Assembly (NCBI GenBank): GCA_963930775.1
Contig: OZ005689.1
Span: 15,748,923-15,812,922 of the forward strand
Reading direction: 5' to 3'
DNA length: 64,000 nucleotides
Origin: Cliona cf. orientalis
Lineage: Eukaryota > Porifera > Demospongiae > Clionaida > Clionaidae
Shown here: positions 5,111-57,987 of the stretch, one piece after another
How the letters are laid out: each line of letters begins with the position of its first letter
Numbering within the stretch: the stretch's first letter is position 1
Program-made: the position numbers and the translations under genes
The notes under the pieces: generated by a model
Database searches by the model: none
What the model was told of the DNA's origin: nothing
The model's input: only the letters and a program-made list of their open reading frames with translations

Positions 5111-5121
5111 TTGGGGAAAGC

Positions 5122-10871: not shown

Positions 10872-12681
10872 AGCTATGCTCGGAAACTCTCTTACAATAC
10901 TGTTATGGCAGACATGCAGTATAGCAGTATAGCTAGATGGCAATAGTCTCGTCTTCTTTTGGGGCGGGGTCTGGGGACGAGACTAGATGGCAACGCCCCA
11001 TGCCCGACGCCCACCATCCGTCCATGTCACATGATTAATTTGTCTCTCTTACACATGCGCACATGACAATTTGTTAGTTGCATCACGGCGTCAGTACTAC
11101 CAACAGTGGTTCCAAGTATACGGATTGGTCAACATTTTTACTGAATTCTGACCGTAAATACTGATAAATTTAAATTTCAAAAATACTGAAAACTGGGAGA
11201 ATTTTGCTCTTTATAAAAATAATACTAAAAAATACTGAAAATGCATGCAAAATACTGAAAAATGGGAATACATGTATTTAGCTATACGAGAACAGCTTGG
11301 AGGCACTGTACCAAAGACTCGGATAGTAATATTATTAGGATTTTTGAACATGAAAATGCCTAATTAGCCTAATATTATGCATATTAGCAGGTATCTAGCT
11401 ATTCCCATATAAGGCCAGTATATTTGACAGAATTTTTCCGGAAATCGCTCTTAGGATTTCTTGTCACAAGATGTTTATAGTACCAGTGTTGGTATGTTAT
11501 ATTAGCATTGAGGATCTAGGAGAGAACTATCTCTGACAGACACCTTATGTATATTAATTAATATAATTATTACAACAATCACATCGATCAACATTGAACT
11601 CTTGTTTTGTCAATCCCTTAATGGATCTATCATTTCATGCTTTTGGTATTTCTGTAGAATAAACATCTCTAATTGACTGATCTCTGTTTCTTGTTTTCAA
11701 TATTATATTTACAAGCATGGCATTTCGGAGACTTTGCCATTGCCTTGATGATCATTGATACTCTTCACCAGGAGCTGAATGGGTTGGGGGGGGGGGGGTG
11801 GATAGGGTGACTATAGCCACCCCCTTCATTAGTTCTTTTATGCAATGTAGTATAGGAAACGTTCACCAGCCACCCCATTTGCCAGTATAGTTTACTATGG
11901 GTATAGTCGCCCTATCAACCTCCTTCCATGCTTCCATTCCTTCCAGCCTGTTTACAGTGTTTGAATCATCCAAGGCAACAACCCAGCTGGGGCCAGTCTG
12001 CAACTTCACAATCATCTTCTTTGCAGCTCCTCTTGCGACTATATAGTAGCTAACCACTTGAACACTAGCCACCTGTGGCATGAAATGAGGACACTTTCTT
12101 CAATACAATAATATTATTATAGAGACTGTGCATGGCCCCATGCAGCTGCATGTATTAATTTTAAAATACCGCCCCCTCCACTTTTTCTCTCCCTCAACAC
12201 AAGAGTACCGAGATGATGTCATTTTTGCTGATAGTGATGTCATTGCTGACAACTGCCTCATGGGCAACTTATGGAACTCTCATTCACGATATCTATGTAG
12301 CTACATGTCAGTGTGCTGTGTCTATAGTGGGCCAGGGTAATTTTTGAGAAATCAAATTTTATTCCTCAAGAATTAACTTTCAAGGATAGACTAAAAATCA
12401 ATGCGAGTGTTTTATTATTTTCCTTGCCTGTTGTAGTTTCCCAACTTCATTGCTCAGAAGAGAACTGTATCTCTGGAATCACCATCATAAACACAGACAG
12501 CCATCATGGAAGACTTTGTGATTTAGCATACTATAATATTATCCTAACAATAATATATACACACATGTATAGCAGTTTTTGAATTCCGTAGCTACCTGGA
12601 ATGCATCAGTTATACACTGAAATTTTCATATGAAATTTACATCATGAATACAAATTACAATAAACAAAAAATCGCACAATG
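10872..12681. other. Intergenic DNA between kinase-Kelch copies
   Basis: 11640-12540 matches 15870-16420, and its 12190-12530 part also matches 4550-4930, so duplicated flanks account for much of this. 11787-11801 is a G homopolymer. 11795-11920 is a small inverted repeat (GATAGGGTGACTATA against TATAGTCGCCCTATC), a relative of which lies at 60580-60650. The short reading frames here fall in the repeated flanks and look non-coding. Confidence 0.6.
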
Positions 12682-26022: not shown

Positions 26023-27455
26023 GGTACCATTAAATTACGTGGGCGTGAGGTGGGGGATATGACACCTAAACCACATCAAAGTCATTAGTGGTGTGCATGT
26101 TGTGTAACCACGCCCCTTTAATTGCACAGGTCTCAGGGGTGTGGCTGCTAGAGCCGGAAGTGTTCATTTAATATCCTCCATGGACCGGAAACCGAGCCGG
26201 AAGGGAGGGGCCAGGCCACGCCCAAAACAGCCCCACCCTGTTCCCCAAGGACCACCATTCTCAATCAAGTGCCTACTAACCACCGGATGTCCACCGGAAG
26301 CCCACAATCAATCCCAATTAAAACACACAGCTTCCTCAAGGCCAAAACACACACAAACACTTGGAGGCCGTTCTGCCACACCGCCCACGCAAGAGCTCAC
26401 CTCATTTCCTGTGTGGGCGGAGTAACAACACGTCATCGCAACCACATCCGCTTCAAACCATCGTCAGCTTCCGTCCAGCCGTACGGGCCCCTCGATCGCA
26501 CCGCCGTACAGTGCCTCATTAACTGACATGGCCTCACCTTTGACCTCCTGCCACGCCCCAAAGCCTCCTGGCCGGGTTCAAAGGTCACCACCGCATCCGG
26601 GACACGCCCACCTATCGCCGCGGCCAAGTCCCAGGCCCCGATGCCCAAGCACTGGCCTGTGAAGCCACGCCCAATCGGAAGCAATAAAACCTGCATTAAC
26701 GCACACGCACACACTCCACACAGTGCCAGGAACACGCCCACATGCTTAATTAGGCCTAATTAGGCTTTTTTTTTTTTTTTTTTTTTTTCAAGGCGACCTG
26801 AACACTAAGCAGAAAAAAAAATTGTCCAAAACCACCACATAGTTGAGCTGGATGCTTAGTAGAGCCATACAATGCAAGCAGGCACCCTATACAGTAACTC
26901 CAATTTTGACCACAGTAGGTAAAGGTCGTCACGTTTGTGTGCGCGGGCCTATAACGGGGATTCCCCGTTTTTCACGTAGCGCGTGGGCGGAAAACATTGC
27001 AAACGTATGGCTTCCCTATACAAACATATGGGGAAACTTCAAAGGGCTGTAACTTTAACTCTAAAGTGTGAATCAAAATTCCGCTTCCTAGAAACTTCTA
27101 ATTTTGACCCATTCTGCATGCTCATATCAATAATTTGTCATGAATGCTTTCCCAGAGTCTCAAACATTTCATTACATTAAATTCTTTTTTTTTTTTCTAC
27201 TTAGTGTTTAAGTCGTTGCGGTTAATAGTTAAGAAAGAATGCTTTGATCTTGCTTTGATGTGGGCAATTACCGGCCTTTTCTTCAGGGGCCACTTCCGGT
27301 CGCTAATTACACGCGCATAATCATCCCTGGCCGATTCTGGACACGCCCACCTTCGACCAAAAGCACTCGTATGGCCTCTTCGGCCACGCCCCTTCACGAT
27401 TCGCTAATTGAATTAGCCATTCCTGACGCTCACGCCCACGCAATTAAATGGTACC
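26023..27455. mobile_element. TTAA-flanked non-autonomous DNA transposon (1433 bp)
   Basis: The left end GGTACCATTAAATTACGTGG and the complement of the right end, GGTACCATTTAATTGCGTGG, form an inverted repeat of about 26 bp. TTAA stands on both sides (26019-26022 and 27456-27459). The interior is much more GC-rich than its surroundings and is strewn with CCGGAAG/CTTCCGG and CACGCCC motifs on both strands. These look like multiplied subterminal transposase-binding sites (inference). TTAA duplication fits piggyBac or Sola2-type elements, but the termini do not settle which. No transposase frame. A CACTAAG MITE is nested at 26803. It interrupts the reverse-transcriptase region of the retroelement fossil. 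Confidence 0.85.
26803..27206 (+). mobile_element. CACTAAG-family MITE, solitary copy
   Basis: It begins CACTAAGCAGAAAAAAAAAT and ends TTTTTTCTACTTAGTG, an imperfect inverted repeat, and is 404 bp long. The interior holds the family blocks GGTAAAGGTCGTCACGTTTG, CACGTAGCGCGTGGGCGGAA and ATGGCTTCCCTATACAAACA. It is preceded by the same CAAGGCGACCTGAA leader seen between units in the tandem arrays, and by a T run of 23 bases. Confidence 0.85.
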
Positions 27456-31098: not shown

Positions 31099-34000
31099 AT
31101 GACAAAATCTAAAGAACCCATTTCAATGCTTGTGATTCTGTTGCTGCTCATTGCTAGCTCTCCATGTGAAGCCATTATTATACTCACATCAGCGAATGAT
31201 AATTGTCCTGGAGGACTCCAGTGCATGACTCTCCAACAGTATGCTAACAATCCCAGTCAAAACTCTAGTACAGTTCTTGAACTTCAGCCAGGAAACCACT
31301 CCCTCAGTTCCCAACTAAATGTCGCAAATATTGTAAACTTTACAATAACTGGCAACGATTCACAAGTGGTGTGTATACCCGGATCAGGTGAAATTAGTCT
31401 CACTTTAGTTCAAAATGTCCTCATCACTGAGGTATCTTTTATTGGATGTGATCGAAATGTGCTCTCAACAAATGGAGACAGTGTGGAAATTAGAAATGCA
31501 ATGTTCAGTCAGAATCGAATTAACATTATAGAATCAGTTACTTCAGTAGTGGTTGTGGACTCCACCTTTGACGGAAATTCTGAAACTGGATTGGATTTTA
31601 GGAATACTGATATTGAAAGTACAGCTACAATAGTAAATTGTGTCTTCTCTAATAATGGCCAAAGAGGTATTACTGCCGTCTCTACAAACCTGGATATCCG
31701 TGGAAGCACTTTCTTCAGAAATAGTGGACCACAGGGAGGATGTATTAGAGCCCAGTCGTCGAGAGTTGATATCGCTTCTTCAAATTTTACACAGTGCACC
31801 ACAGTAGGACACCCTGGTGGAGCCATATATGGTCAGCAAGTTACCTTCACAATTACGAATACCAATTTTATGGGCAATCAGGGGTACACTGGGGGAGGAA
31901 TTCGTGGAGATTCCTCATCATTTAACATTACCTCAAGTGAATTTGTCAAAAACGTTGGTAATGTAGATGGTGGTGCGATTTATGCCGGCTCTGGCACAAC
32001 CTCATTCAATCTTGCAGACACGAACTTTATCTCCAATACTGCAGCTAGAACAGGAGGAGCTGTATACACGTTAAGGCTAGATTCACTAGTTTGTGGTGAC
32101 TTCATCAACAACACTGCTGTGAGTGGTAATGGTGGAGGCCTGTATGTCAGCACTCATTTCTCTGTTACTATTAGCCATTGCAACTTTTGGAACAACACAT
32201 GTGATGGGGGTGGCCTTGGTGGAGCTGGTGTATCAATAGTTGCACCTGCAAATCATATTTCAGTGAATGTCATAGGAAGCACCTTTCTCAACAATGTCGT
32301 ACAAATTGGAAATGGAGGTGGACTGTACTTTCGATCTAATGGGCAACTAGCAAGTATGATGATCACTGAATCAAGCTTTAGAAATAACACTGCGACCTCT
32401 ATTCAGGATTCTCTACGCAACAGAAACACTGTCTTTGGTGGTGGTATCTACATGTCTGGTGGTAACAGTTCTATTTCTATTGATTCTAGTGAGTTTTCAA
32501 TGAACTGCGCAAGTGGAAGTGGCGGTGGTGTGTATATGACCGGTTCGATAGTTGTAAACTCAAGCAATTTTACTGAAAACTCTGCCTTGCTTGGGGAGGG
32601 TGGAGCGATACATTGCGACGGTCGCAATGCAAATGTAACATTGATCAGCAGTATGTTTGACTACAATTCTGCACCATCTTGTGGAGCTTTGGATGTAAAT
32701 GAACGCTTTCATGTTATAGAATTCCAAGACTGCTCCTTCACTCACAATACAGCCACTGGCACAGAAATTGGAGGTGGTGCTTGCTGCATCTCTAGTGCTT
32801 CTCTGTCCGTAACAAATAGCAATATGAGTCATAATGCAGCAACTATGAATGGTGGAGTCTTCTACTTTAATGGTGGTGTAGTTGAAATAAGAAACAGTAA
32901 CTTTATCAACAATTCTGCTGAAGGACGTGGTGGTGTTGTGTACACATACATACATCCAGTTTCATACAACATTCTTGAAAGTACATTTCGCCAGAATACG
33001 GCAAGAAATGACGGAGGGGTACTATATATTGGCAGACGGAGTAGCAATGTTCACATCAGAGAGAGCGAGTTTGCCTATAACTCGGCTACAGAGGGTGGTG
33101 GAATCATCTCCATCATAGGCAGTAGTCTCATATTTAATACCACCAATTTCTACAATAATACGGCAAATAAGGGAGAAATCATTAGTGCATGCAATAGCAT
33201 TGTCTCTCTCTACAACGATGCTGGGCAAGTTCAGACGCAAATATCAAGGGACATGTGTACATTTTTTGACAATACTGACTCTAATGGTCTCAGTGAACCA
33301 ATTAATGAAACCAGCGGTTTTAATCAAACAAATTGCATAAACTGTGATGCATTTATTATTTTAACATCTTCAAATAACTACTGTCCGGGAGAATTTACTG
33401 GTGATCCTTGCCTTACACTGCAACAATATGTAGCTAGTCCCAGTTTTGAAGCGAACATCTCACTGATATTTGAGCCTGGGAATCACACACTCACAGGGGA
33501 ACTATCTGCATCAGATTCATACAACTACACAATGGCAGGGAGTGGTGCAAAAATTATATGCGATACTTCCGCAGCTGAATTAAGTCTCACTTCAGTTCAG
33601 CATGTCTTCATTATTGATTTATCTTTTATTGGATGTGATCGAAATGTGCTCTCGACAAATGGAGGCAGTGTGGAGATAAGAAATGCAATGTTCAGTCAGA
33701 ATCGAATTAACATTATAGAATCAGTTTCTTCAGTAGTGGTTGTGGACTCCACCTTTGATGGAAACTCTGATACTGGATTGGATTTTATGAACAATATTCA
33801 AAGTACAGCTACAATAATGAATTGTGTCTTCTCTAATAATGGCCACAGAGGTATAACTGCTGTCTCTACACACCTGGATATCCATGGAAGCACTTTCTTC
33901 AACAACAGAGGACCACAGGGAGGATGTATTAGAGCCCAATCGTCGAGAGTTGATATAGTCTCTTCAAATTTTACACAGTGCACCTCAGTAGGGGGACACC

Positions 34001-35782
34001 ATGGTGGAGCCATATATGGTCAGCAAGTTACCTTCACAATTATGAACACCAATTTTATGGGCAATCAAGGGTACACTGGGGGAGGAATTCATGGAGATTC
34101 CTCGTCATTTAATATTACCTCAAGTGAATTTGTCAAAAACATTTGTGATAGAGATGGTGGTGCAATATACGCTGGCTCTGGCACAACCTCATTCAATCTT
34201 GCAGACACGAACTTTATCTCCAATATTGCAGATAGAACAGGAGGAGCTGTATACACGTTCAGGCTAGATTCATTAGTTTGTGGCAACTTCATCAATAATA
34301 CTGCTGTGAGAGGTGATGGTGGAGGACTGTTTCTCGACACTATTCTCTCTGTTACTATTAGCTATTGCAACTTTTGGAACAGCATAAGTGGTGAGGGTGG
34401 CTTCGGCGGAGCTGGTGTATTAATAATTTTGCGTAGGGATTATATTTCGGTAAATATCATAGGGAGCAGCTTTATGAGCAACGCTGCCGTACCTGGACAT
34501 GGCGGAGGGCTTCACTTCAGGTCTAATGGACAGCATGCACGTATGACAATCACAGAATCCAGCTTTATAAACAACTCTGCCAATTTACTCGAGTCTGTAC
34601 CACATAGACAAATCATTAACGGAGGAGGGATCTACTTATCTGGTAGCAATAGTTCTGTTTTTATTGACAAAAGTAATTTTTCAATGAATACTGCCAGTGT
34701 AAGTGGAGGTGCTATTTATGTCACTGGCTCAATTTTCATCAATGACAGCACTATTTCCAACAATAGAGCTATAATGGGTGAAGGTGGAGGCATCGTCTCC
34801 GATCAGCAGAATGCACACGTGTCTGTGACTCAAACTACATTCATTCACAATACTGCCCCCACTTGTGGAGCAATTTCTATCCAAAACTACGACCATACTG
34901 TCACCTTGATTGACAGTTCATTTGCTTACAATGAAGGAACTAACCACTCCAATGGAGGAGGAGGAGTAGCTTGCTTTAATGGTTCTTCGACATCAATCAT
35001 CACCAGTAGTTTCCGTACTAATATGGCAAATTATAATGGTGGAGTTTTTCTTTTTCAATATAGCACTTTCAGATTTGAAGACAGCCATTTTCACAGTAAT
35101 TTGGCACTAAAGGATGGTGGTGTTATCTATTCCAGTACTACATTTCTTAATCCATCTACTATTTACCAGTGCTCCTTTATCCAAAACACAGCTGGAAGCA
35201 ATGGAGGGGTTTTATTCATGCACAATACTGGCAGCCTGCTCAACATTAGTCATAGTAGATTTTCCAACAATAATGCAACTAGCAGTGGGGGTGCTATTTA
35301 TGTCAGCGAAAGTGCAATACGAATCACGGAGACTAATATCTTCAATAACTCCGCTGATCTTGGAGATGCAATTCAAGCTTGTGGCAGTGATGTCACATTA
35401 CGAGACTCACAATTTACAATAAGTACTGATTCTAGCAACTGTACTTCCTATGACGGAGATGTTGACAACTTTGTAAATTTTATGCGCACGATTGACATAG
35501 AGATTGACTCAAATATGACCACTTTTTTTGCTACATGCCCCTTTGAAAATGATTTAGATTCCGTTACTACTTCTGAAACTGAAATGATTACTACTCCTAA
35601 AGCAACTATGTCTACTGAGGCTAGGGCAGAGACTACCACTACTGCTGAAGCTGTCAGTACTGGCACTGAAGCAACTACAGAGATGATTACTACAACCATT
35701 GTCACCGAGGCTGCTCAAACCACTAATGCAATCACCAATGACACTGAAACCACTGATGCAATCACACCACTTATTTCAACTG
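31099..35782 (+). CDS. Receptor exon 1: signal peptide and duplicated PMP-repeat ectodomain
   Basis: The ATG at 31099 is followed by a hydrophobic core (MLVILLLLIASSPCEA), a clear signal peptide. The rest is one 4.7 kb exon of repeated FxxN..A..GGAI/GGGI units (for example FINNTAVSGNGGGLY, FRNNTA, YNSAPSCGAL), the hallmark of chlamydial polymorphic membrane protein repeats, which fold as a right-handed parallel beta helix. Two modules start with matching segments, IIILTSANDNCPG at residue 25 and FIILTSSNNYCPG at about 752. They keep register at about 730 codons, with stretches near identity such as FIGCDRNVLSTNG. N-glycosylation sequons are abundant. The exon ends in a Thr/Glu/Ala-rich, mucin-like stalk (about residues 1490-1561), then ACT G|GTTAGT, a phase 1 donor. 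Confidence 0.88.
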
Positions 35783-38700
35783 GTTAGTTCAGCAACTAAA
35801 TATCTGAATTCATAAACTACCCTACATGCACATAACTTTGAATCCGTAAGGCCGTGTAAATTGATGGGCATCCACAGATGAGTCCCTCCCATGCGCATAT
35901 TATTATGCATGTACCTGATAAGAAGGTATAGCTAATGTTTTTGTGGGATAGAGCCTCAAGTTAATATTTGATAAGGTTTTTCCTTTTCATAAGTATGCTC
36001 ACATGAAGTATTTTGCGGGTTTACCTTTCCCAGAACATACCAGTGAAAGTTTCAACCAGGAAACAAGTACCACATTGATAGTTCTTGATACTACATCAGC
36101 AATTAATACTGAAGCCAGCTCCCCTACTGGTGAATCTGTCTTGTTAGGAGCAGTTATTGGAGGAATTATAGCATGCCTTGCACTTTTGTTGCTTGTGGTG
36201 GCAAGTATCATAGGTGGATATTGCTTGTACCATTCTGGGCATAAGAAGAGTAGAAAATACAATGTCACTCAAGAGATGGGAATGTCATTAAAAACGGTAA
36301 GAAACTGAAATTATAGTTATACTGATAATTTAGTTTATGACTTTCTGCAGGTTTTACTGAGGATCAGCAAAAATCAAATTCTGATATCATTGAAATAAAA
36401 GTGAACAGTAAGCAATGTATAACATTAACGAGTCTGCACATATAGTGTCATGTTATGATCCCTCCTTGATAACATACATAATATGTACTGTAGATAAATA
36501 TGAGATTTATTTGCCTATCATGATAATAATTATAGGTAGTGAAGGAAGCATTGAACAATGTGAAGTTTTTGAAGGACCATTGGCAAAAGAAGACATCAAG
36601 GTGCCACATTAATTTTAATATATTATCGGTACTCAGTCATTTACATTAGATTATGTGTGCAATATCATCGATTCAACATTACAATTATGAACAAACGTAG
36701 GCTGAGTACATGAAGTGCCCGGTTTGTAAGGAGATTCAGGTTGACCCCTGTACACTTCAGTGTGGACACACTGTCTGTCAGCTTTGTCTAGCAAGAATGT
36801 GGAAACGTCAAAGTCAATTTTGTCCATTATGCAAGGATCACTGGCAAGTATACCCTGCAATCACCATTGACTACAGGTACATGGTTAATGTGCACTGAGT
36901 GCAATGCCTGTGTACACCTGATCTTCAATTGAATTGTAGAGATAACATCGAGAAATTTTATAGTGACGAAATAGTTCAGCTAAGAAATTCATATACTCCA
37001 GAAGATAAGGAATTAATAAAGGAGTTCCTGTCAAACAAGACCTCTTTTAGTCCAGCAAATGATACCCAAGAGCAGGAGATTGATGTGCAAGGCAGTGTGG
37101 AAGAAGAGTACAAGCAAGGTTATGCTCTCTCTATCTCCCTCTCTCTCTCTCGCTCTGTCTCTCTCTCTCACTCGCTCTCTCTCTCTGAAGCTCTTTCTCA
37201 CCAGTATTTATCAGATTCTTACTTTTGCATCAGATGTCACCAGTGAATATTATGAAGAACTGCAACTAACTTCTGCATCTGAGCCAAGTGAACCACTTTT
37301 ATACCAGTCATCAGATGACAAGGAGGATAATAATGAAAGATGGTATTCTCAGTCTGTTAAAGAAGAAAGCACACAAGAACCTAATATCTATGCAGCTCCC
37401 CGTCACAAATCTGTGGGATCAAAGTCCAGCATTAAAGTTTCACGTATGTCACTGTTGTCATTTCAAATTAATACTAATACCGGTACTAAACATAGTGCAT
37501 GTACTGATTTTTGAAGAGGGTGGTATATGCTTGTCCCTGACCCCTCCTTCCCCTCATACATGCTAACATAAGGATTAATTCCACAAAAATACCAGCTCAC
37601 TCCATTAACGGGCTATAAGGATATTGGGTGTTTTTTGGATACTACTTTGGGAATGTTGAGGCCTACTTATATCAAGGTCATTATCTCAACAACAGTCTTA
37701 CCCAGTTAAATCATGGATTTGAAGGCCATATTACCACAGAAACTGGTTATTAAGTGCATGCGCTTATAACACGCATGAGCAGCAAGAAAATATTATGCGC
37801 ATAACAAAAAGTATGCGCTTAATTAAAAGTGCTAAAAACACGGTAGGTAGGGCGTGCGTAAAGAACGTGTCGAGGGTAGAAAGGCCTACAACGGTGGCCA
37901 AGAAGCGACCAGAGAGCGTAATTCTCGATGTTTTCTTCTCCAGCCCACTTCTAGCCTTCTTTCTGGGTTCATGTACCAATCGCTTGTCATTCGGTGGCTT
38001 GCTAGGCATATGCGGCTAACATAGAGCGGTAAGACTCGAGCAAAACTATGCACTTAATAAAAAGTATGCACTTAACAGTGAGCAGCGCTTAACAACCAGT
38101 TTCTACAGTATTTTAGCTTAGATTTGTGAGAACACGTGCATGCTAATTACATACAATCATGTACAGCTATATATTTACTAGTGGACTAGAGTATAATTGT
38201 AATTAAACTGAGTAGCAGCTTAGAACTTTGTGCAGATATTCGGATAAAGAACCACCCTGAGAGTGATGTAAATATTAAATATCTTGAAAACATGACGTTG
38301 TCTGTGACTGCGGTTGGAGCCAAGCCCCCATGTTACAAGTGGAGGAGAAATGGACAAGATATCACTCATCCCAAATGTTCGGGAATTGATACTCCCACTC
38401 TCACCATAAGTTGCTTTTCACCTGAACATGAAGGAAATTACACATGCATTGTCTCTGATGGCAAGGAAGTGTTTGAATCAGCCCCTGCTAAACTGAAGTT
38501 GGGTAAGCAGACATTTGTGGAAGGCACTTATTTGGTTGAAATGAGCAATTGCATTTTTCACTTAGCTATAATATCATAATGTCAATTTTCAATATCATAC
38601 TGTCTATAGGATTTATTACCATATTTATGCACTTTCTGTGGCTCTGAGTATCAGGTAGCCTTTTTTGGCTCACCCGATGGCCTTGTGATAGCAATAATAT

Positions 38701-41700
38701 TATCATACAATACACTGCATACAGATCTCCAGATAATAAAACAGCCACAGCTTCCCCCAAGTGTGAAATATGGTGCTTATGTGGCTATTACTGTGTCCGC
38801 TGTTGGAGACCAACAATCCCTCAGCTACTACTGGAAGCTTAATGGAAAAGATATCGATCTTGAAAGCTGCACTGGAACTAATACCCGTATTCTTGTTATA
38901 AAATCTTGTTCATTTGAACATCAAGGGACCTTCACATGCACTGTAAAAAGCATTCAGGGAATGATCGAGTCAAAACCAGCTAAACTGAAATTGAGTAAGT
39001 AACTAGATATCTCCATGCAGTATTCACAACTTTGATTATTGTGTGGGTATGATTTTCAAGTAATCTTTCTTTCGACTCCCTGGCCACTAATTTCACTACT
39101 GCTATAGTTGATAAGTGTCACAAGTAGTGATACGAAAGTATGTATATAATTATGTCTTGGCCTTTTTCTATATAATAGCCATACAATTTCTGTAAATGTG
39201 CTACAGTAACTAAGCATAATATTATATAATAATTATTGCATGCATACTAACAGCTATAGTAAAATATCACTTTTCATTACATTTTAGAAATAAAATTTGA
39301 GACATCTATGTCAGCTAATGATTTCTACCTGTGGCTTCAGTTAGGAGGACTGAGTGAAGAGGATCTGCAAGCTCTAAAATGTGTGTATATATGTATGCCC
39401 ATACAGTTGGCTAGGGGTAACAAGAGAATAATAATTATAATATAATATTTATAAAAACTACAGTTATTACATTGAGTGTATATAATAATATTATAGCATT
39501 GATTATTGTCTACACAGGTCATGAAAAGATATTAACAGCACAATTGTTTGAAAGACTCAACTCCGATATCATTGATAGGCTTAAACTGTCAACAGGAGGA
39601 AAGATGGTAGTTAATCAACTGCTGGATGAAATAAAAGAAAGACGTAAGTGTAATAGCTATAGGCATAGAGAATAGTTTAGCTGTCATGCACGCCTGATGT
39701 CTACTTGACATGTAAAAGTGCATGGCTAATTAACCCTCAGCGCATGCGCCGTAGGGTTACGGTAGTCGTTCTGTGTGTCTGTCTGTCCGTCTGTCTGTCT
39801 GTCTGTTAACTCTGTAACTGCTTCATACTTCGTTTGCGAGTCTTAAGTTCGGTGTTATATGATTCCTTATGGCGTTTCAAAGCCATGTATTGTGTGGATT
39901 TCGCTGAAAACGCTTTGTTCTCCAGTTCTGGCGACATTTGTTCAGGACCGCTACCTTTCACCATAAATCATCCTTCCACGCACCGTTGCAGCTTTTCGAT
40001 GGACAAAATGAACAACACTGGACTTCTTTCAAGATACAAAGTGATAATAACTCTTGCAAAGTTACTGTCTCGAAGTATTTAGTGTAACTGCCAAGCTTCT
40101 TGACTTTCCTGGCCTGCAAGCCCACACCCAATGCACTCGTTTCTATTTACACGAAAATCATGCTACCGTATACATGCATGCGTACCATACTGTACTGTAC
40201 TAAGTATGCTACTTACATACGTATACTGACCCTTTACCATATACAATGAACCTACTAGGGATGTGGCAATTCATTGTACCACTATTAATGAAAATTTACA
40301 GCTACATACCTAGTATTATCAATAACATAAATCTCATGCACAGCGCCGAGGGTTTAGCACCAATGGTGTTCATATTATAATATTACCACATTCTGGGGCC
40401 CCTAGTAATGTCATCCAGGTATTTTTTTGCTAAGTGCATGTCTGTTTTCTTCAAGTAAACATCTCCCCATTATTTGGAGAAGATCAAATGCCAGAAGACA
40501 CTCCTCATAAGTGTAGTTCGTGATAGCATTACTGACAACAAATATGGTGACGGGGACGCTTTTACTTGATCACTGAGGACAGTTTCCAGAGAAAATAATC
40601 TGTAGCTCTTCAAATGGACTGCTCTATATAATAATTATACACAATCATACATTCTAAAAGGCATGAGGGTCAAAAATGGTTATTACGATACACAACTGAT
40701 GGAAACATAGATAGGTGTTAGATTACGCGAGAACAAATTGCAAGCAAAACAAACAATACTTAGTGTTCTATGCATCTGTTTCTGCATAGGCTCTTAATTA
40801 TCACACTGCCCCCTCCTTAAGATTCTTGTCTCAAGAGATTTGTGGTTGCAACTTGATAGTTGGGATGTAAATTTGTATCCAAATGTCACATCCACAACAT
40901 ATTATGCTACATATATTTTAAGGATAGAATGGATCTAATCTATGAAAGCTTGTTTACTACTAATTAAGTACTTCGGCCTGGCTGTGAATTGGCTTCGGCT
41001 GATCTTCCATACCAGTAATGTTACAGTTGTATAAATCCATGCAGCAACGTAATGATAAACCATTATTAACAGATGATCACATTTTTAGGTCAACATAATG
41101 ACACCGCTGCAGTTAAACAAGAACACTCGACCCCAAAGAAAGGTAAACATAATAGTGATTGTGATAGAATGACATTAGCTAGGGTAGGGCATCATAATTA
41201 TACTATGTACAATGAAAAACTTAATACCTTTTCAGAGGATCATTAATTTTTTTTGTAGCCTGTATCATTACAGGAGGGCATGGAAACACATCCTTGGACA
41301 TGCCCAGTTGACAGAAATTTAGATTCTAGGCTCAGGATTGGTCAGAACTGTACAGCCGTGTGCAGCTGTGCACTGGCCATAGAGCTATACCGGGATTTTC
41401 AGATCCCGGACCGTTGTCCTCTGGATAAACTTTCAATCAACACTCACACATGGTCGATTTCAGCTCTTAAGTACTGTAGTCTAAGGATCATGCTGAATCC
41501 CAAAATGGCAAATAATTTGCCCACAAACTATATATCTGAGCTGCGGATAGCACATCTATTGCATGTGTCAGAGCACACGTACAGTGAGGAGGTATGTGGC
41601 CTTGTTCTACCATAGTTGTAATGTGAGACCCAATGCATGTATATAAGTATGGCCCGCAGCGTTTCCTCAGAGAATTTGAAAAAAATTAATATTTCTACTG

Positions 41701-43221
41701 TGGCTGGTACTAGCTATTCCTGGTATTTATCTATATGAGCTAAAGAGTGAATTGGTCAAAATGTTTGGAATTTCCGTGGGCAAAGCCATGATCTGTAGAA
41801 CCGTGACAGAGATTCATGGGTAGCACAAGACAATCATGTGGCACTACAGCGGTCTGAAGTCCATTGGGGCAGATTTATGTCAGGATCGAATCTCTATGTA
41901 TGATCCATCGTTGATTTGGCTGGATGTGACTGGTTAAGGTGTCCATGAGATTAATATGGGTATAGCCTGAGATCGAGGCATCACTCTCTGCCTGCTAGGA
42001 CAAAGGCTGCCCACCTATTGTATTAGCCCAGTCACCAACTAGGGTGACCTTAGCACTACACTGTTGGCATAGGTGGCAGGCGCTTTCTCCTCTCTCTGTA
42101 AAAGTTTGATTTTACAGACATCAGCGGTATCCTAAGTTGAAATCCCCATGATTTTTGGTTGGTTAAAGTAGCTATCACCAAACTGTATGACTTTAATGCA
42201 ACATTAATTTCTTGATTTACGGTATGCTATACCATCCTTGAGATGTGGCTATACCTGGGCTACATACTAGACATGAGAGGCTGTACTTTCCATACAAATG
42301 CGTAGTGCTACAGTCAAACAGCACTCAATTAAATCTGCAAATTTTGACCTTTTATCATTAACCTACTGTTTGTTCTAATAGCTATAAGCGCCTTTTGAGA
42401 TCTGCGCAATTTTTTCGGTTCTAATTAAAGTTGCCTTTCCAGATATCCATTAAATTTAGGTGGCGTCTGTTTCTTAAATTGGAACGTATTGCCATGTGCA
42501 ATATCACAATTGCACCGCTGTATCATCGATTGACATATCGAGCTAGCGTTCAGATGTCAAACTAAGCTGTCTATTACATTTATGTGAGCACTTACCTACT
42601 GCTTTGATGTCTTCCTGGAGTTAGAGACAACCGTTCTGATGGTTCTAATTGGAGGCACCTGTGCGATCTGTAATTATTTTTAGGGACGCCTAAATTAGAA
42701 AGTACACGGTATATACCATAAAATCACCGACCTCCATCCTATAGCCAGCACTTTGCATATTATAATAATGGCTAGGCAATGGCCACAAAATGTAGCCGTG
42801 CACCGCAATACTCTATAATATTATGATTGCAATATATATTGCAATCATGCGGCTAACTAATAATTAAAATTATTTTATTGTTTTAGAAGTCACGATAGGT
42901 GATCTACATGTTCTCAAGCGTTGTGATAAGAGTGGCAAAACCATGAAAACTGTGAAAATCATCAATAGCGTAAGCCACAGATGGTGGCAAATTACATCTC
43001 TCCTGTCAGATGACGCAAACAAGGCAGAAATTCTAAGTCAGAAGTTCAATAATGATCCTCAAAAGTGCCTCGAACAGCTGTTTAAAGATTGCTTCATCAA
43101 GAACAAACCAGCTGTTGGCCGATATTCACAAGATTGGGATGGACTTATTGAGCTCCTTGAGGATATTGATGAAGCAGTAATTGCAGAAAAAGTGAGGGAA
43201 ATGGTGATAAATCCATACTGA
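31099..43221 (+). CDS. Predicted receptor: PMP beta-helix x2 - TM - RING - Ig - Ig - SAM-like - Death
   Basis: Thirteen exons join with consistent phases: 31099-35782, 36034-36296, 36362-36407, 36536-36600, 36701-36876, 36940-37118, 37234-37443, 38236-38502, 38725-38994, 39288-39380, 39518-39643, 41089-41142, 42887-43221. Every junction has GT and AG. They give 2255 residues: signal peptide (1-25), PMP-repeat ectodomain in two modules (about 26-1480), Thr-rich stalk, TM (about 1597-1624), RING (1692-1730), Ig domains (1875-1963, 1964-2053), SAM-like region (2054-2126) and Death-type domain (2145-2255). By topology, RING, Ig and Death are cytoplasmic. Family knowledge suggests ligand or microbe sensing coupled to ubiquitination and death-fold assembly; this is inference. 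The exon 3 acceptor is the weakest call, and an AATAAA lies at about 36394. The alternative is two adjacent genes, a PMP-TM protein and a RING-Ig-Ig-Death protein. Confidence 0.72.
36034..36296 (+). CDS. Receptor exon 2: juxtamembrane and transmembrane segment
   Basis: The acceptor CTTTCCCAG|AA restores the phase from exon 1. The exon encodes a short Ser/Thr-rich stretch, then SVLLGAVIGGIIACLALLLL and VVASIIGGYCLYH, a strong single membrane span. Basic HKKSRK follows, marking the cytoplasmic side. It ends ACG|GTAAGA in phase 0. If the intron is retained, the protein stops after three more codons (VRN). Confidence 0.85.
36701..36876 (+). CDS. Receptor exon 5: C3HC4 RING finger
   Basis: The exon reads AEYMKCPVCKE, then C-G-H, C-x2-C and CPLC with the spacing C-x2-C-x11-C-x-H-x2-C-x2-C-x11-C-x2-C, a classic C3HC4 RING. 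All eight zinc ligands are present, so E3 ubiquitin ligase activity is plausible. The acceptor CGTAG|GCT and donor ACAG|GTACAT keep frame with exons 4 and 6. The position just inside the membrane span makes this a membrane-tethered RING. Its ATG (MKCPVC) could also start a separate protein. Confidence 0.85.
37125..37195 (+). repeat. CT microsatellite in receptor intron 6
   Basis: Runs of CT/CTCTCG interrupted by occasional A or G, just after the exon 6 donor at 37118. Open frames across it arise from the low complexity and are not exons. Confidence 0.85.
37737..38106. mobile_element. MITE in receptor intron 7
   Basis: The left end AAACTGGTTATTAAGTGCAT pairs with the right end CGCTTAACAACCAGTTT. 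Repeated TATGCRCTTAA motifs are near both ends. It is about 370 bp, non-coding, and entirely within the intron between 37443 and 38236. Confidence 0.75.
38236..38502 (+). CDS. Receptor exon 8: Ig domain 1
   Basis: A phase 1-1 exon, as is usual for Ig domains. Core motifs are TLSVTAVGAKPPCYKWRRNG (B strand, Cys and the invariant Trp) and GNYTCIVSDG (the Y-x-C of the F strand). It ends AKLKL and a GTAAGC donor. It follows a low-complexity acidic linker (exons 6-7), which tightly spaced TED/SSDD segments suggest is unstructured. Confidence 0.85.
38725..38994 (+). CDS. Receptor exon 9: Ig domain 2
   Basis: Parallel to exon 8 in length, phase and motifs: VAITVSAVGDQ, SYYWKLNGKDI, GTFTCTVKS, and the same ending AKLKL before GTAAGT. 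The two exons are clearly tandem duplicates. The position usually taken by the first Cys is replaced (the segment reads QQSLSYYW), so the canonical disulphide may be absent. That fits a cytoplasmic, titin-like Ig fold. Confidence 0.83.
39288..39643 (+). CDS. Receptor exons 10-11: SAM-like helical region
   Basis: Exons 39288-39380 and 39518-39643 join to give a helical stretch with DFYLWLQLGGLSEEDLQALK and then LFERLNSDIIDRLKL..GGKMVVNQLLDEI. The pattern (aromatic-x-WL, glycine-leucine turn, a DIIDRLKL helix, a Gly before a long last helix) resembles SAM domains, but it is a weak, pattern-level match. A Death-fold hairpin is the main alternative. Confidence 0.5.
39732..40354 (-). repeat. AACCCTC-family repeat, copy 3 (in receptor intron 11)
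   Basis: It begins AACCCTCAGCGCATGCGCCG and ends CAGCGCCGAGGGTT, an inverted repeat, with the family's GTCTGTCTGTCCGTCTG tract near one end. Length is 623 bp. The open frame at 39834-40082 lies wholly inside and is repeat-derived. Confidence 0.8.
41210..41365 (+). repeat. Interspersed repeat shared with 17735-17910
   Basis: Same block order as the copy at 17735: TATCATTACAGGAGGGCATG, CTCAGGATTGGTCAGAACTG, then GCCGTGTGCA. It lies in intron 12 of the receptor gene. Confidence 0.65.
42887..43221 (+). CDS. Receptor last exon: Death-type domain
   Basis: The acceptor TTGTTTTAG|AAG is preceded by a good pyrimidine tract. The exon gives SHRWWQITSLL at helix 1, KAEILSQKFN, CLEQLFKDCFIKNKPAVGRY (central W/L-rich helices), then DWDGLIELLEDID and EAVIAEKVREMV before TGA. 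The layout is that of the Death superfamily (helix 1 with Trp, a ..W..L..aL..i....va..i end). The separate ATG at 42943 is internal and not needed. Confidence 0.7.
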
Positions 43222-45577: not shown

Positions 45578-45758
45578 CATAAACCTGTATATACATTAAT
45601 AAGATATGATGGTATTTACGTGTAGATACAGCAACTGGGGTATGTACAGCATGATTTACCTAAAGAACCACATTTTGTGATCTGATCTATGTTCAGAGGA
45701 TAGATTTAGCCATACAGTACTTTCTGAGGATCATTTTTTTTTTTCAAGGCGACCTGAA

Positions 45759-47760
45759 CACTAAGCAGAAAAAAAAATTGTCCAAAAAATCACCGCATAG
45801 TCGAGTTGGGTGCATAGTGGAACCATACAATGCAAGCAGGCAACCTAAATTTCAATTTTGTCAAGAAGTTGGTAAAGGTCGTCACGTTTATGTGCGCGCG
45901 TGGCCCCGCCCCTCACGTAGCGCGTGGGCGGAAACATTGCAAACGCATGGCTTCCCTGTACAAACATATGGGGAAACTTCAAAGGGCCGTAACTTTGATT
46001 CTAAGGCGTGTATCAAAATTCCCCAAGGTCAAATTTCTCGTTTCGATCCATTCTGCGTGCCCATGTAAAAATTATCTCCCCAAATACTCCCCAACCCCCC
46101 AAACATTAATTAATTATATAAATTCTTTTTTTTCAAGGCGACCTGAACACTAAGCAGAAAAAAAAATTAAAAAATTGTCCAAAAACCACCATATAATCGA
46201 GGTGGGTGCATAGTGGAGCCATACAATGCAAGCAGGCAGCCTAAATTTCAATTTTGTCAAAAAGTTGGTAAAGGTCGTCACATTTATGTGCGCGCGTGAC
46301 CCCGCCCCTCACGTATCGCGTGGGCGGAAACATTGCAAACGCATGGCTTCCCTGTACAAACATATGGGGAAACTTTAAAGGGCCGTAACGTTAATGCTAA
46401 GGCGTGAATCAAAATTCCCTAAGGTCAAATCTCTAGTTTCGACCCATTCTGCGTGCCCATATAAAAATTATGCACTCAGGTGCTCTCAACCCCCCTGTGA
46501 ATTATTTTTCTATATTTTTTTCTACTTAGTGTTTAACAAGACCACACACTAAGCAGAAAAAAAATTGTCCGAAAACCACCACATACGCGTAGTATAGAGA
46601 GCCTTACAATGCAAGCAGGCAGCCTATACATCACTTTTGACCAAAGTGGGTAATGGTCGTCACGTTGATGTGCGCGCGTGGCCCCGCCCCTCACGTAGCG
46701 CGTGGGCGGAAAACATTGCAAATGCATGGCTTCCTATACAAACATATGGGATAACTTCAAAGGGCCGTAACTTTAATTCTAAGGTGTGAATCAAAATTCC
46801 CCAAGATCAAATCCTTAGTTTCGACTCATTCTGCATGCCCATATAAAAATTGTGGTATAATATGCTTTATAGACCCCTAAGACTTTTCTTCTTCCCTATT
46901 CCTTTTTTCTTTTTTTCTACTTAGTGTATAATTTTCAAGGAGACCAAAACACTAAGCAGAAAAAAAAATTGTTCGAAAACCGCCACAAAGTTGAGCTGGA
47001 TGCATAGTAGAGCCATACAATGCAAGCAGGCAGCCTATACAGCAATTTTGATCAAAGTGGGTAATGGTCGTCACGTTTGTGTGCGCGCGCCTAACGGGAA
47101 TTCCCCGTTTTTCACGTAGCGCGTGGGCGGAAAACATTGCAAACGTATGGCTTCCCTATACAAACATATGGGGAAACTTCAAAGGGCCGTAACTTTAATT
47201 CTAAAGTGTGAATCAAAATTCCGCTTCCTAGAAACTTCTAGTTTTGACCCATTCTGCACGCTCATATCAATAATTTTTCGTGAATGTTTTCCCAGAGTCT
47301 CAAACATTTAAATTCTTTTTTTTTCTACTTAGTGTTTAACAAGGCGACCTGAACACTAAGCAGAAAAAAAATTGTCCAAAAACTACCATATAATCGAGCT
47401 GGGTGCATAGTGGAACCATACAATGCAAGCAGGCAGCCTAAATTTCAATTTTATCAAAAATTTGGTAAAGGTCGTCACGTTTATGTGCGCGCGTGGCCCC
47501 GCCCCTCACGTAGCGCGTGGGCGGAAACATTGCAAACGCATGGCTTCCCTGTACAAACATATGGGGAAACTTCAAAGGGTCGTAACTTTGATTCTAAGGC
47601 GTGAATCAAAATTCCTGAAGGTCAAATCTCTGCATTCGATCCATTCTGCGCGCCGGTGCAAAAATTATGTCCCCAAGTGCTCCCAGTTCCCCCCTGAATT
47701 AATTAATTAAAAGTCTTTTTTTTTTTCAAGCTACCGTGCACACTAAGCAGAAAAAAAAGA
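45759..47760 (+). mobile_element. Tandem array A of CACTAAG-family MITEs (five units plus a stub)
   Basis: Units start at 45759, 46148, 46547, 46950 and 47354, with a stub at 47741, so the period is 387-404 bp. Each runs CACTAAGCAGAAAAAAAA to TTTTTTCTACTTAGTG. Most junctions keep the same linker, TTTAACAAGGCGACCTGAA. Interior blocks (GTCGTCACGTTTATGTGCGC, CGCGTGGGCGGAAACATTGC, ATATGGGGAAACTTCAAAGG) are strongly conserved. The open frames inside come from one conserved block and have no protein family match that I know. A shared linker argues for tandem amplification rather than repeated insertion. Confidence 0.88.
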
Positions 47761-50014: not shown

Positions 50015-50797
50015 TTAGGCATCCAAGACTTTACCAAATGGGATGGGTACATGCTGGAGGACAGCAGATGACAAAGGCACTAGTGCTGTGAAGTGACTGT
50101 GTGCAAAAAACAGTGCTAGTGGCAAGTGTGGTAGTGTTGTAACATCACCTGACATAAGCAAGGCTCTATGTGCACTACTGCACCATTGTAGGTGTTGCCT
50201 TGTACCTGAAACAAATGCAAGAAAATTCTGAGCAAACACGTGAACATTGTCAATATCTGCTAGCATGAGTGTCCTCACGCAGTCCTCACTAGTGGTGTAG
50301 AAATAAACATATGTGAATATTGGCCTGTCAAGGAGAAGTGACAATGGAAATAAGTGGAAGTCACTTCCCCAGGTTCCAATTCGTAATGCATGTACAATAA
50401 GGGTATTGGCTTTACGGACATGATTCCCGTAAGGGTCTGTAGGGAAAGCATGTTGCAGGGCTTGAATTAGGATGTCCCTGTATTTCACAGTAGCGTATGC
50501 AATCAATAACCTGAAAACCCTTGAAAGCTGCTCACTACCACACACAACTCTAGAGAGAGTATGGTACATGCAGTCCCCATCCCCTGTTGTCAACACAGGC
50601 TTGTATGTCTGTAACATTAGTGGGTGACATTGGCTGACAACAGACACAGCTCTGGGTAAAGTGGGAAAATCATTAGCATAGACTGGGGGCAGTGCATTAA
50701 CAGCTTGTGCAATGGCTTCAAAAGCCTCATGCATACCATTCAAACTGTCAATTACCTCTTGTATGGAATTTAATGATAGTGTAGTGGCCAGCACACT
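50015..50797 (-). CDS. OTU-type cysteine protease domain, in frame after a TAG
   Basis: About 260 codons open on the minus strand directly after the TAG that ends the Rep/helicase frame, and in the same frame. There is no ATG at the front: the first in-frame codon of note is GTG, and the first Met (NGMHEAF) is about 20 codons in. The OTU signature is clear. TTGDGDCMYHTLS holds the catalytic Cys (about residue 75), FFAHSHFTALVP near the end holds the catalytic His (about 234), and hydrophobic strands lie between. OTU domains are a known companion of Rep-helicase in Helentron-type Helitrons, where a role in removing ubiquitin has been proposed. It is probably the C-terminal part of one polyprotein with 50798-56224, now separated by a single stop. 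Confidence 0.82.
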   Translation of the reverse strand, partial: SVLATTLSLNSIQEVIDSLNGMHEAFEAIAQAVNALPPVYANDFPTLPRAVSVVSQCHPLMLQTYKPVLTTGDGDCMYHTLSRVVCGSEQLSRVFRLLIAYATVKYRDILIQALQHAFPTDPYGNHVRKANTLIVHALRIGTWGSDFHLFPLSLLLDRPIFTYVYFYTTSEDCVRTLMLADIDNVHVFAQNFLAFVSGTRQHLQWCSSAHRALLMSGDVTTLPHLPLALFFAHSHFTALVPLSSAVLQHVPIPFGKVLDA

Positions 50798-53700
50798 CTA
50801 TGGAGAGGCACCAAGTAATTGTTGCACTCTTTGCAGCAAGTGAACACAGGCACCAGTTACATTACTATGAACGGATGGCTCATCTGTGGAAAGGGTACTA
50901 AATGGAGTGCTCACCTTAAGCACTTTGCTAGGGGGCTGTCCACTATTATTGCTATTGGCTCTCTTAGGAGGTTGCCCTCTCCCATGTTTTGGAGGCTGAG
51001 TACTGTTAGGAGCCTGTGACTTTGGAGAGCATGCAGTATCAATAGTATTAGGAGGCTGAGATTTACGAGGACGTTCCCTACCACGTTTTGGCTGTGTTTC
51101 AGTGGATGAATCTGAAGGAGTATTTTTACGGGGATGACCCTTGCCTCGTTTAATTGAGGTACTCTGTGGATCAACATCTGAAGAATCAGAATCAAGTGGC
51201 ATGGATCCAGATTTAGGCTGATCTGATTTGCGAGGACGTCCCCTACCAGGTTTAGGCTGTGTTTGGATGGATGTCTCCAATGGAATATTTTTACGGGGAC
51301 GTCCCCTCCCTCGCTTGGTTGAATTGCACTGTGTATCAACATTTGAAGGATCAAAATCAAATTGTATGGATCCTGACTTAGGGTTAATATCATTCATAGA
51401 TGGCTCTGGAATGGGTTCATTACTCAATAAGTCATGAGATCTCTCTGGGTACTCAACTACATCAGTTGGAGGAGTGGGATGAATTACATCAACATTATCA
51501 CACCACTGCAATAGCTGTTGGTAGAAGGGTTCAAGGTGGATGGCAGAGGGATCAAACTCCCATAAGACTAGATCATTCAGAGTTCTGACTCTGCTTAGAG
51601 CTGCATAAGCTTGACCAGAAGCAAAAAATCTTTCACCCAAGTATACTACTGCCTTTTGAACAGTACAGCCCTGAACTCGGTGCACTGTCACACCATATGC
51701 TAACTGAAGGGGAAATTGCTGACGTAGTATGCTGTAGGATGCCCCACGGATTTCAATCCGCTGTCTGAACCTAGGGACAGGATGCTTGTGGGCTGGATTG
51801 GCAAGCTTGGCTATAACAATGCAACTAGGATGGAGGGAGGTGACAATAGCTAGAGTACCGTTGACCCAACCTCCATCAATGTTGATATTACGCCTTAAAA
51901 CAACACGGGCACCCACTTTGAGTACTAGTTTATCAGGAAGTCGCTCACGATACTTAAGAACTGTTTGCTTGTCAGCCTCTCTTAGTGGGTGGCCATGATG
52001 GTCAGTGTCTAAGGCTTCATATACACTCTCTCTTCCATCAATTCTGTTAATGCAAAGGTCATTAACCTCCTCACACTCCTTTCTAGTGCTACAGATCACA
52101 ACAGTCCTGTCTAACTGTATGTTATCCATATCCCGAGGTTGAACTATACTTCTCAGAACATCAGTGACTTCTTGATCACACACACCCATCCTGACTTTAG
52201 TCAAGACACTAGTAAGTACAGGATCCTGAGACCTTTTGATCTCTCTGAGGACTAAAATTGAAAATGTACGCCAAAGATGGGTACCAAACAAATCACTCCT
52301 ACCCACAGCAGGCAACTGGGCAGGGTCCCCAAGCATAACAATATGCCTGCCTCCCCAGGGTAGCCTAGATGCACCATGTTTGGCAAACTTTCTACAGAGA
52401 CCCTCTGCTACACGGAAAAGGTAATAGTCCAGCATACTGAACTCATCAATGACTATTACATCAGTCTTCCTCAATTTGGTTACCTCCACTGTACCATTTT
52501 CTAATGTGCTTTGGCACTCAATATCCAAAGAAAAAAATTTGTGAAGAGTTGTACCTCCAATGAGGTGGGCAGCAACACCACTAGGAGCCACCTTTGTAAC
52601 AACTAGGCCTTTGGACCTGGCCAACTCAATTAAACCCTTCAATAGATAAGACTTGCCAGTTCCAGCTGGCCCCACTATGGCTGCATGGACCAGTTTGTTC
52701 TGGTTGAACTGACCCTCAACCCACCTGTAGGCTCTTAATTGGGACTCGGTAAAAGTATTAATAAGGATGCTCAAATCAACACCAGAACTGTTAGGGAGCA
52801 GGTCCCCTGTATCACTGTGAGGGTGATTCAACATTTGATCAGTTACAGTAGCCTCAGGCTCATCCTGCTCACCAAGGACAGGAATATCGCTCAAAAATGT
52901 GTCCGCTTCTTCTTCAGATAAGAAGCCATGCTCAATATACAACTGTGCTAAGGACCTTAACTGGTCTGTGTGAAACCCCCTTGAGATTGCTGACTGCAAG
53001 CAAGATAGTGCATCAAGGTGGGCATCACACATTCCACTTTCAGCACAGAGCTCTACCCAAGACTTGGGAGGATTCAAAACAACCTCATGGTCTTCTGTCA
53101 TGGGCACACTGAGTAGATACTTCTGTTGATAATACTTTTCAGTATCATCACCAACAGAACTGATGAATCGGTGTCTAGTAATGACCATTTTGGCCCGCCT
53201 AATCCAATAGTGACCCACTCTGTCGGCTAACATGGTACCAGGAGGGTATGTGCTCAAAACAGACACCAATTCATCGCTGGGATTGGCTTCCATAAGCCAG
53301 TGTTTTGAATTCAGACCACTCTCTAGGTCAGGGTGGTAAAAATCGACTACTTCGAAAACGCCATTTGCAGTAATAATGGATTCAAGGGGGAAATCATTGC
53401 ATTCCTCACTCTGTTCATCTATTCCAGATTCAGTATAAAACTGCACAACAGCTTCAACCACTATAGGGGCTACATCATGTGCCTTCAAGCACCTTTTCAA
53501 GGCTAAAAGATCATAACCACTCTGTATCTGCAAGCTACACTCTGAGAGTAAATCGGCAAGGAGTGCCTGAGCTGATTCTAAGGCTGACTTGGCATCCAAG
53601 TAACCACTGAAATCATCAGCACCCTTGCTTTTGATAACACACTGGCTATTCGCCCGTGCTGCTTTTTTCTGCTCATCTTGGTTGGCAGAACGCCACCACT

Positions 53701-56224: not shown

Positions 56225-56394
56225 ATGATAACTTTATTTCACACTTACAACACTTGGTAAACGAAGAGAAGTTCGATTGTGCCTTCCTGGTCTGGATTCT
56301 TTTCAGCAGTCAAGAAGACACGAGGAACACAAAGCCAAAGCGCTGCGCATGCACTTATATACAAATGCATTCTAAATAACGCACACCGGGACTC

Positions 56395-57858
56395 AAAACA
56401 TTGCAAATGCGTGGCTTCCCATACAATCATATGGGGAAACTTTAATGTGCCATAACTTTATTTCTATGGTGTGAATTAAAATTCCCCAAGGTCAAATCTC
56501 TAGTTTTGACCCATTCTGCGTACCCATGTAAAAATTATGCCCCCAAGTACTCCCAAATCCCCCGTGAATTATTTTTCTATATATTTTTTCTACTTAGTGT
56601 GTAACAAGGCGACCAGAACACTAAGCAGAAAAAAATCGTCCAAAACCACCATATAATCGAGCTGGATGCATAGTGGAGCCAAACAATGCAAGCAGGCAGC
56701 CTAAATTTCAATTTTGTCAAAAAGTTGGTAAAGGTCGTCACGTTTATGTGCGCGCGTGGCCCCGCCTCTCACGTAGCGCGTGGGCGGAAACATTGCAAAC
56801 GCATGGCTTCCCTGTACAAACATATGGGGAAACTTCAAAGGGCCGTAACTTTAATGCTAAGGCATGAATCAAAATTCCCTAAGGTCAAATCTCTAGTTTC
56901 AACCCATTCTGCGTGCCCATATAAAAATTATGCACCCAGGTGCTCTCAACCCCCCTGTGAATTATTTTTCTATATTTTTTTCTATATATTATATTATATA
57001 TATATATTTTTCTACTTAGTGTTTAATTTCTACTTAGTGTTTAACAAGGAGACCAGAACACTAAGCAGAAAAAAAAACTGTCCAAAACCACCACATAGTT
57101 GAGCTGGATGCTTAGTAGAGCCATACAATGCAAGCAGGCACCCTATACTTCAACAAATTTGACCAAAGTAGGTAAAGGTCGTCACGTTTGTGTGCGCGTG
57201 CCTAACGGGGATTCCCCGTTTTTCACGTAGCGCGTGGGCGGAAAACATTGCAAACGCATGGCTTCCCTATACAAAACATATGGGAAAACTTCAAAGGGCC
57301 GTAACTTTAATTCTAAAGTGTGAATCAAAATTCCCTGCCATCAAAATTCTAGTTTTGACTCATTCTGCATGCTCATGTAAAAATTATCCCCCCAAGTACT
57401 CCCAAACCCCCCATGAATTAGATTATTTAATTATTTAATTATTTAAATTTGCTTTTTTTTTCTACTTTGTGTTTAACAAGGGGACCACACACTAAGCAGA
57501 AAAAATGGTCCGAAAACCACCTCACAGTCGAGCTGGATGCATAGTAGAGCCATACAATGCAAGCAGGCACCCAAATAGCCATATATACAATGTTTGGTAA
57601 AGGGTCGTCAACGTACCCCGCGCGCCCGTAATTTTTTTTATGGGCAAACATTGCAAGTGCATGGCTTCCTATACAAACATATGGGGATACTTCAAAGGGC
57701 CGTAACTTTAATTCTAAAGCGTCAATCAAAATTTTCTCATGTCAAATCTCGTGTTTCGACCCATTCTGCGTGCCCATATAAAAATTATCTCCCCAAGCAC
57801 TCCCAGTCCCTCCAAACATTATTTACTGCACAGAAATCTTTTTTTTTTCTACTTAGTG
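56395..57858 (+). mobile_element. Tandem array B of CACTAAG-family MITEs (partial unit plus three)
   Basis: A unit lacking its left 150 or so bases begins at about 56395 (CATTGCAAATGCGTGGCTTC). Full units start at 56619, 57059 and 57490, ending CTTAGTG at 57858. Linkers again read AACAAGG.GACC..AACACTAAGC. An ATAT microsatellite and a duplicated TTCTACTTAGTGTTTAA lie at 56985-57043. Array B and array A bracket the Helitron-like gene, so that element may have split one longer array. Confidence 0.85.
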
Positions 57859-57987
57859 TGTAATTTTTTTTGTCTATAATACTTCATGTACTACAATATG
57901 TACATAGGATACATGAATAGCTGAATAAGCTAATTTAGAACACATACCCTTAATAATTATTATGGTGATAAACAAAAATAAGTGGTA

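Follow-up and report, generated by a model that had tools for sequence, protein, structure and literature searches.

On its plus strand, the 64-kb window (by which we mean the whole stretch of DNA that was analysed) carries a chain of 13 exons which, with a probability of roughly 0.55, represents one gene encoding a single-pass type I surface protein; in this protein a PMP beta-helix ectodomain and a membrane span would be followed by a tail containing a RING and two Ig domains. The joined chain is 6,768 nt long and is translated into 2,255 aa, the sole stop being its last codon (43219-43221). GT/AG borders were found at 12 of the 12 introns and the phases run on without a break across the 13 exons (Table 1), in agreement with the original prediction of 13 open segments with matching borders and phases and a terminal stop. 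The ATG of exon 1 has an A at -3. Exons 7 to 12 are all of phase 1-1, the classic class for exon shuffling.

Table 1. Exons of the modelled chain and modules of the ectodomain (positions in the 64-kb window).
Feature	Position	Strand	Content
Exon 1	31099..35782	+	1,561 open codons; hydrophobic signal-peptide-like N-terminus, two PMP/beta-helix modules, Thr-rich stalk
PMP module 1	about 31171-33341	+	within exon 1
PMP module 2	about 33343-35538	+	within exon 1
Exon 2	36034..36296	+	end of stalk, single membrane span (36141-36230, residues 1598-1627), then KKSRK
Exon 3 (uncertain)	36362..36407	+	juxtamembrane linker; frame kept only with acceptor 36362
Exon 4 (uncertain)	36536..36600	+	linker; basis, codon use
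Exon 5	36701..36876	+	C3HC4 RING, ligands within 36716-36832
Exon 6	36940..37118	+	linker; basis, codon use
Exon 7	37234..37443	+	acidic linker, phases 1-1; codon score 0.22 per codon
Exon 8	38236..38502	+	Ig domain 1, phases 1-1; Ig_3 match
Exon 9	38725..38994	+	Ig domain 2, phases 1-1; second stretch of the Ig_3 match
Exon 10	39288..39380	+	first half of the module previously labelled SAM-like
Exon 11	39518..39643	+	second half of the module previously labelled SAM-like
Exon 12	41089..41142	+	short linker; basis, frame and codon use
Exon 13	42887..43221	+	C-terminal helical domain previously labelled Death; stop TGA

The chain is a choice among splice sites, one fit among several; an alternative set, which combined acceptor 36351 with a donor behind 39382 and added 41274-41591 as an exon, broke the frame and was rejected. 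The stretch 41274-41591, located in intron 12, is open over 106 codons and has AG/GT borders and no Pfam match; it is open in phase 0, the surrounding intron being of phase 1, and its phase-1 reading stops after 12 residues, so that it cannot be spliced into the gene and was discarded as an exon.

Codon use was evaluated with a score trained on the kinase-Kelch open reading frames, with the intronic and intergenic sequence of the window as background. The modelled frame scored best of the six in 13 of the 13 exons, which is more than chance, in a test that penalises stops and in which closed frames therefore lose easily; exon 5 won by just 0.09 vs 0.08, exon 2 scored -0.03, and the unused open stretch in intron 12 likewise won in its own frame. 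Among stop-free background windows the score of exon 3 was equalled by 7.8% of 1840 and that of exon 4 by 0.4% of 1000, while for exon 7 no stop-free background window was available for comparison. The scores of exons 6 and 11 were equalled by none of 105 and none of 187 background windows, respectively, and those of exons 10 and 12 by 1.4% of 500 and 5.2% of 1365.

In the ectodomain, exon 1 matched Beta_helix (5.2e-25) and Chlam_PMP (9.2e-17, 59.8 bits vs a curated cut-off of 20.6) in Pfam, and POMP_repeat (4.9e-16, 57.7 bits vs a cut-off of 15) in NCBIfam. Residues 1-1540 contain 43 FxxN motifs with a median spacing of 26.5 (shuffle mean 9.2, maximum 18) and nine GGA[ILV] motifs (shuffle mean 0.2, maximum 3). 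These matches, together with an overall identity of 59% between the two modules, bear out the two-module PMP beta-helix ectodomain that had been proposed. Sequon counts in the ectodomain were set aside as evidence (37 vs a shuffle mean of 35.9). Both types of repeat are shared with chlamydial Pmp proteins (PF02415, TIGR01376), and in Chlamydia they are described as coils of a beta-helix, according to the available text of PMC11166332. Unlike in those proteins, here the repeats are followed by a membrane span and a tail; neither an autotransporter beta-barrel nor a Pmp middle domain was among the three Pfam families matched by exon 1 at E<=1, and no C-terminal autotransporter beta-barrel was detected in the tail at the same threshold.

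In the alignment of the two modules, columns 91-330 gave a dS of 0.17, compared with 1.68 before them, 0.74 after them and saturation further on; the low-dS part corresponds to about 31426-32142 and the matching part of 33343-35538. Such a low value in the middle against at least 0.74 in the flanks suggests that the two modules have recently undergone conversion or exchange. The dN/dS ratio was 0.26-0.39 where computable, the last stretch being saturated, which indicates purifying selection; thus exon 1 looks like part of a living gene.

Kyte-Doolittle windows of at least 1.6 were confined to the N-terminus (residues 7-32) and to residues about 1592-1630, the span reaching a peak of 2.96, so that a single membrane span follows the ectodomain, as predicted. 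The proposed signal peptide corresponds to a hydrophobic, signal-peptide-like N-terminus. If the exons form one gene, the Ig domains would be cytoplasmic; the number of sequons in the tail (7 vs a shuffle mean of 3.7) does not favour a cytosolic location.

The RING was recovered by zf-C3HC4 (PF00097) with an E-value of 3.7e-8 in the whole tail (33.6 bits vs a cut-off of 21) and of 3.2e-9 for the segment of exons 5-6, and all eight zinc ligands of the RING consensus are present, which leaves the predicted C3HC4 RING well founded. Among solved RINGs, that of TRIM21 came first (5e-9), followed by those of other TRIMs and then by RNF168, BRCA1 and others. The likeness is therefore to TRIM RING E3 ligases (TRIM21, TRIM5, TRIM25, TRIM56), although in the present case the RING would be fused to a receptor, and neither B-box nor SPRY was among the 22 Pfam families reported for the tail.

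The two Ig domains predicted after the membrane span were also found, Ig_3 (PF13927) matching two stretches in exons 8-9 (9.5e-18, 64.9 bits vs a cut-off of 30). In alignments with contactin-2 and off-track, both domains show Val at the column of the B-strand Cys and keep the F-strand Cys; the canonical B-F cysteine pair, common in Ig domains and not obligatory, is thus absent from both. As the B-strand Cys is missing, the usual Ig disulfide cannot form, which would suit the cytosol or a reducing compartment. Four cysteines in total are left in Ig1 and three in Ig2, other disulfides being possible, and with these and the tail sequons taken into account the evidence from sequence on topology is not decisive.

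A tandem of intracellular Ig domains is also present in MALT1, a cytosolic protein with the order Death-Ig-Ig-paracaspase-Ig. Both proteins would have tandem Ig domains on the intracellular side, perhaps next to a Death fold; they differ in that the Death candidate is C-terminal here, in that the cysteine pair of the MALT1 Ig is absent, and in that no caspase-like family was found by Pfam in this protein. MALT1 was absent from the best 60 of the 65 PDB matches to the Ig pair. The available text of PMC3179463 reports that the tandem Ig domains of MALT1 form dimers and tetramers, and that they make no disulfide despite a close pair of cysteines.

The C-terminal modules behaved differently from the RING and the Ig pair, as the original prediction of a SAM-like domain in exons 10-11 and a Death domain in exon 13 was not borne out by profile searches. 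No Death (PF00531) or SAM family was found by Pfam at E<=1, nor at E<=10 for the trimmed segments, a search limited by HMMER filters, which drop most matches above about 0.1. Using phmmer against PDB sequences at E<=10, the SAM segment gave no match at all and the Death exon gave three (E 0.34-1.2), all of them unrelated proteins and none a Death domain. We also built home-made profiles, one from ten Death sequences and one from eight SAM sequences; in leave-one-out controls all ten and all eight members were recovered, the lowest at 18.1 and 15.7 bits, respectively. With these profiles exon 13 obtained 2.6 bits, a score as good being reached by 84 of 2000 shuffles, and the SAM segment -0.6 bits, equalled or exceeded by 1052 of 2000; among unrelated open reading frames of the window, two scored above exon 13 with the Death profile and at least ten above the SAM segment with the SAM profile.

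It is accordingly a serious possibility, if somewhat short of even, that both C-terminal modules (exon 13 and exons 10-11) are specific to the lineage and have no relationship to Death or SAM: neither module matches a profile or a PDB sequence, their bit scores lie far from those of the lowest left-out members, and exon 13 has no fold match. Some observations lean the other way. In a whole-profile alignment each module had a higher z-score with its own label (1.25 for the Death exon with Death, 1.45 for the SAM segment with SAM, a value reached in either test by 19 of 200 shuffles) than with the other one (-0.55 for the Death exon with SAM, -0.05 for the SAM segment with Death), five left-out members being at 5.7-9.2; this is a faint lean to the SAM and Death labels, and the home-made Death profile, with the 84 shuffles in 2000 given above, is in line with it. 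AlphaFold2 returned a hairpin and five helices for exon 13 alone (110 residues, pLDDT 55.6), and six helices for a 96-residue part of it (pLDDT 61.3, low confidence), six being the helix count of the Death fold; Foldseek with both low-confidence models gave no Death match. We consider that the C-terminal exon may well be a diverged Death-fold domain, and that a diverged SAM in exons 10-11 is conceivable, at rather less than even odds. Of the three domain types that profile searches were expected to recover, RING and Ig were therefore obtained and Death was not, and a "death-fold output" of the tail is a conjecture drawn from the pattern of residues and from an all-helical model of low confidence.

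The single gene itself depends on the interval 36296-36701. Between the donor of exon 2 and the acceptor of exon 5 we counted 194 open, phase-consistent chains (1 direct, 16 with one exon and 177 with two), and 30 shuffles of the interval gave a mean of 7.4 one-exon and 38.0 two-exon chains; because so many chains fit, many by shuffling too, phase agreement across the interval is no evidence, and the agreement between exon 2 and exon 5 was dropped as an argument, being nearly worthless. The exon chain and its phases are real, as had been claimed; the joining of exons 1-2 to exons 5-13 is plausible. The chain through exons 3 and 4 ranked second of 194 by codons, eighth by splice scores alone and first when both were combined; an equally coding-like chain was found in 2 of 26 non-coding slices (overlapping control slices from this window). 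By splice scores alone, which were computed with a generic weight matrix, splicing exon 2 straight to exon 5 ranked first, and this would still mean one gene.

The alternative is that of two neighbours on the same strand. The first would encode a PMP membrane protein whose tail, a few dozen residues long, ends near 36306-36398; the second would begin at 36710 or slightly upstream of it and encode a cytosolic adaptor made of RING, Ig, Ig and helical C-terminal modules. The end of the first gene could be supplied by acceptor 36351, the strongest of the 25 in the interval and in the 98th percentile of the window, which yields VLLRISKNQILISLK and, 15 codons on, a stop at 36396-36398 overlapping an AATAAA at 36394; however, AATAAA is common, with 34 occurrences on the plus strand of the window. 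Read straight on, exon 2 also meets a stop, at 36306-36308. The start of the second gene could be the ATG at 36710, immediately ahead of the RING, but it has a T at -3, and a start there would clip the edge of the RING, the Met lying two residues before the first zinc Cys and exon 5 coding Ala-Glu-Tyr ahead of it. The acceptors in between are weak, that of exon 4 being in the 55th percentile of the window and that of exon 5 (36701) in the 29th and 12th of the 25 in the interval, which again suits two genes; against this, exons 3 and 4 are coding-like and contain no in-frame Met, which means that, were they translated, their reading frame would have to come from an exon further upstream. On balance we regard two genes as unlikely, and exons 1-2 and 5-13 as probably belonging to one gene, counting under this heading an alternative short form and the direct joining. 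Such a short form, in which one locus would use tandem acceptors, 36351 for a signalling-dead surface form and 36362 for the full receptor, is suggested by the position of the two strongest of the 25 acceptors 11 bases apart (36362, in the 80th percentile of the window, is required by the frame), of which the first stops at once and the second opens the RING frame, but the weight matrix was a generic one and chance could explain the pair, and we hold such a switch to be improbable.

Returning to a single gene for a surface protein with a RING-Ig-Ig tail, its long ectodomain might bind a surface, be it that of another cell or a glycan of microbial or extracellular-matrix origin, and this binding would cluster the tails. 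The clustered RINGs, whose activity is predicted from sequence, could then engage a ubiquitin-conjugating enzyme and assemble chains of ubiquitin, and the Ig pair, like the two modules at the C-terminus, may serve as a platform for oligomerisation or docking, by analogy with the tandem Ig of MALT1. Only tentatively do we extend this to a single early-animal receptor in which the PMP ectodomain is combined with a tail made of a RING ubiquitin ligase, an intracellular Ig platform and a death-fold module, that is, to a class of sensors that are neither TLR nor NLR. If one transcript covers the chain, it would provide an animal receptor in which one polypeptide joins an adhesin-like beta-helix directly to a ubiquitin ligase, no separate adaptor being required, with Ig domains on the inner side of the membrane as in MALT1, and a concrete candidate for how an early animal reads microbes or neighbours at its surface; if there are two genes, what is left is an unremarkable PMP surface protein next to a RING-Ig adaptor.

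Sponge Ig-TIR receptors are comparable in being early-animal membrane receptors that join Ig domains to an immune signalling module; in them the Ig domains are extracellular and accompany a TIR, whereas here they would lie on the cytoplasmic side, and Pfam reported no TIR in this protein. In the Dysidea genome, the accessible part of PMC12909245 gives 6 of 14 TIR genes carrying Ig, with Ig-TIR combinations, and 128 DEATH-domain genes. In Amphimedon, 357 TRADD-N proteins were reported, up to 50% of them with unique architectures (Kaur et al. 2021, PMC8195603, as far as its available text goes). These TRADD-N/Death proteins resemble the present one as sponge-specific mixes of Death-like, kinase, adaptor and other domains, and differ in having N-terminal Death-like units and TRADD-N; the same portion of PMC8195603 mentions no beta-helix receptor. 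A novel Death-kinase-TIR gene is described in actiniarians in the available text of PMC5094078, which credits such novelties to domain shuffling. Since one sponge at least has many proteins of unique architecture, to judge from the text of PMC8195603, a new domain mix is to be expected and the surprise is tempered.

Collections of viral contigs, genome contigs and phages, none of them compiled for animal genomes, were searched with single parts of the protein. No relative was found in viral contigs with the RING exon and exon 1 as queries, in genome contigs with exon 13 and the two PMP modules, or in phages with exon 13. Among the literature matches listed, which mostly leave out subscription journals, no title described a PMP receptor that carries RING or Death; one may still exist in print.

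The rest of the window contains at least three paralogous genes in a row encoding a protein kinase and Kelch repeats, on the minus strand at 3714-7285, 8613-10982 and 12685-14934. By Pfam, one of them is a single open frame of 750 aa and one is split in two frames; 3714-7285 holds broken frames that resemble kinase-Kelch genes by blastp only, with partly overlapping matches, and perhaps more than one copy. A Helitron lies at 50018-56233 (minus strand), with a frame of 1,811 aa containing Helitron_like_N and a PIF1 helicase, and the next frame has a weak match to an OTU-like protease (3.5e-5). Finally, a dispersed repeat family is present at 26759-27177, 45664-47707 and 56446-57860, its frames being alike at about 44-100%.
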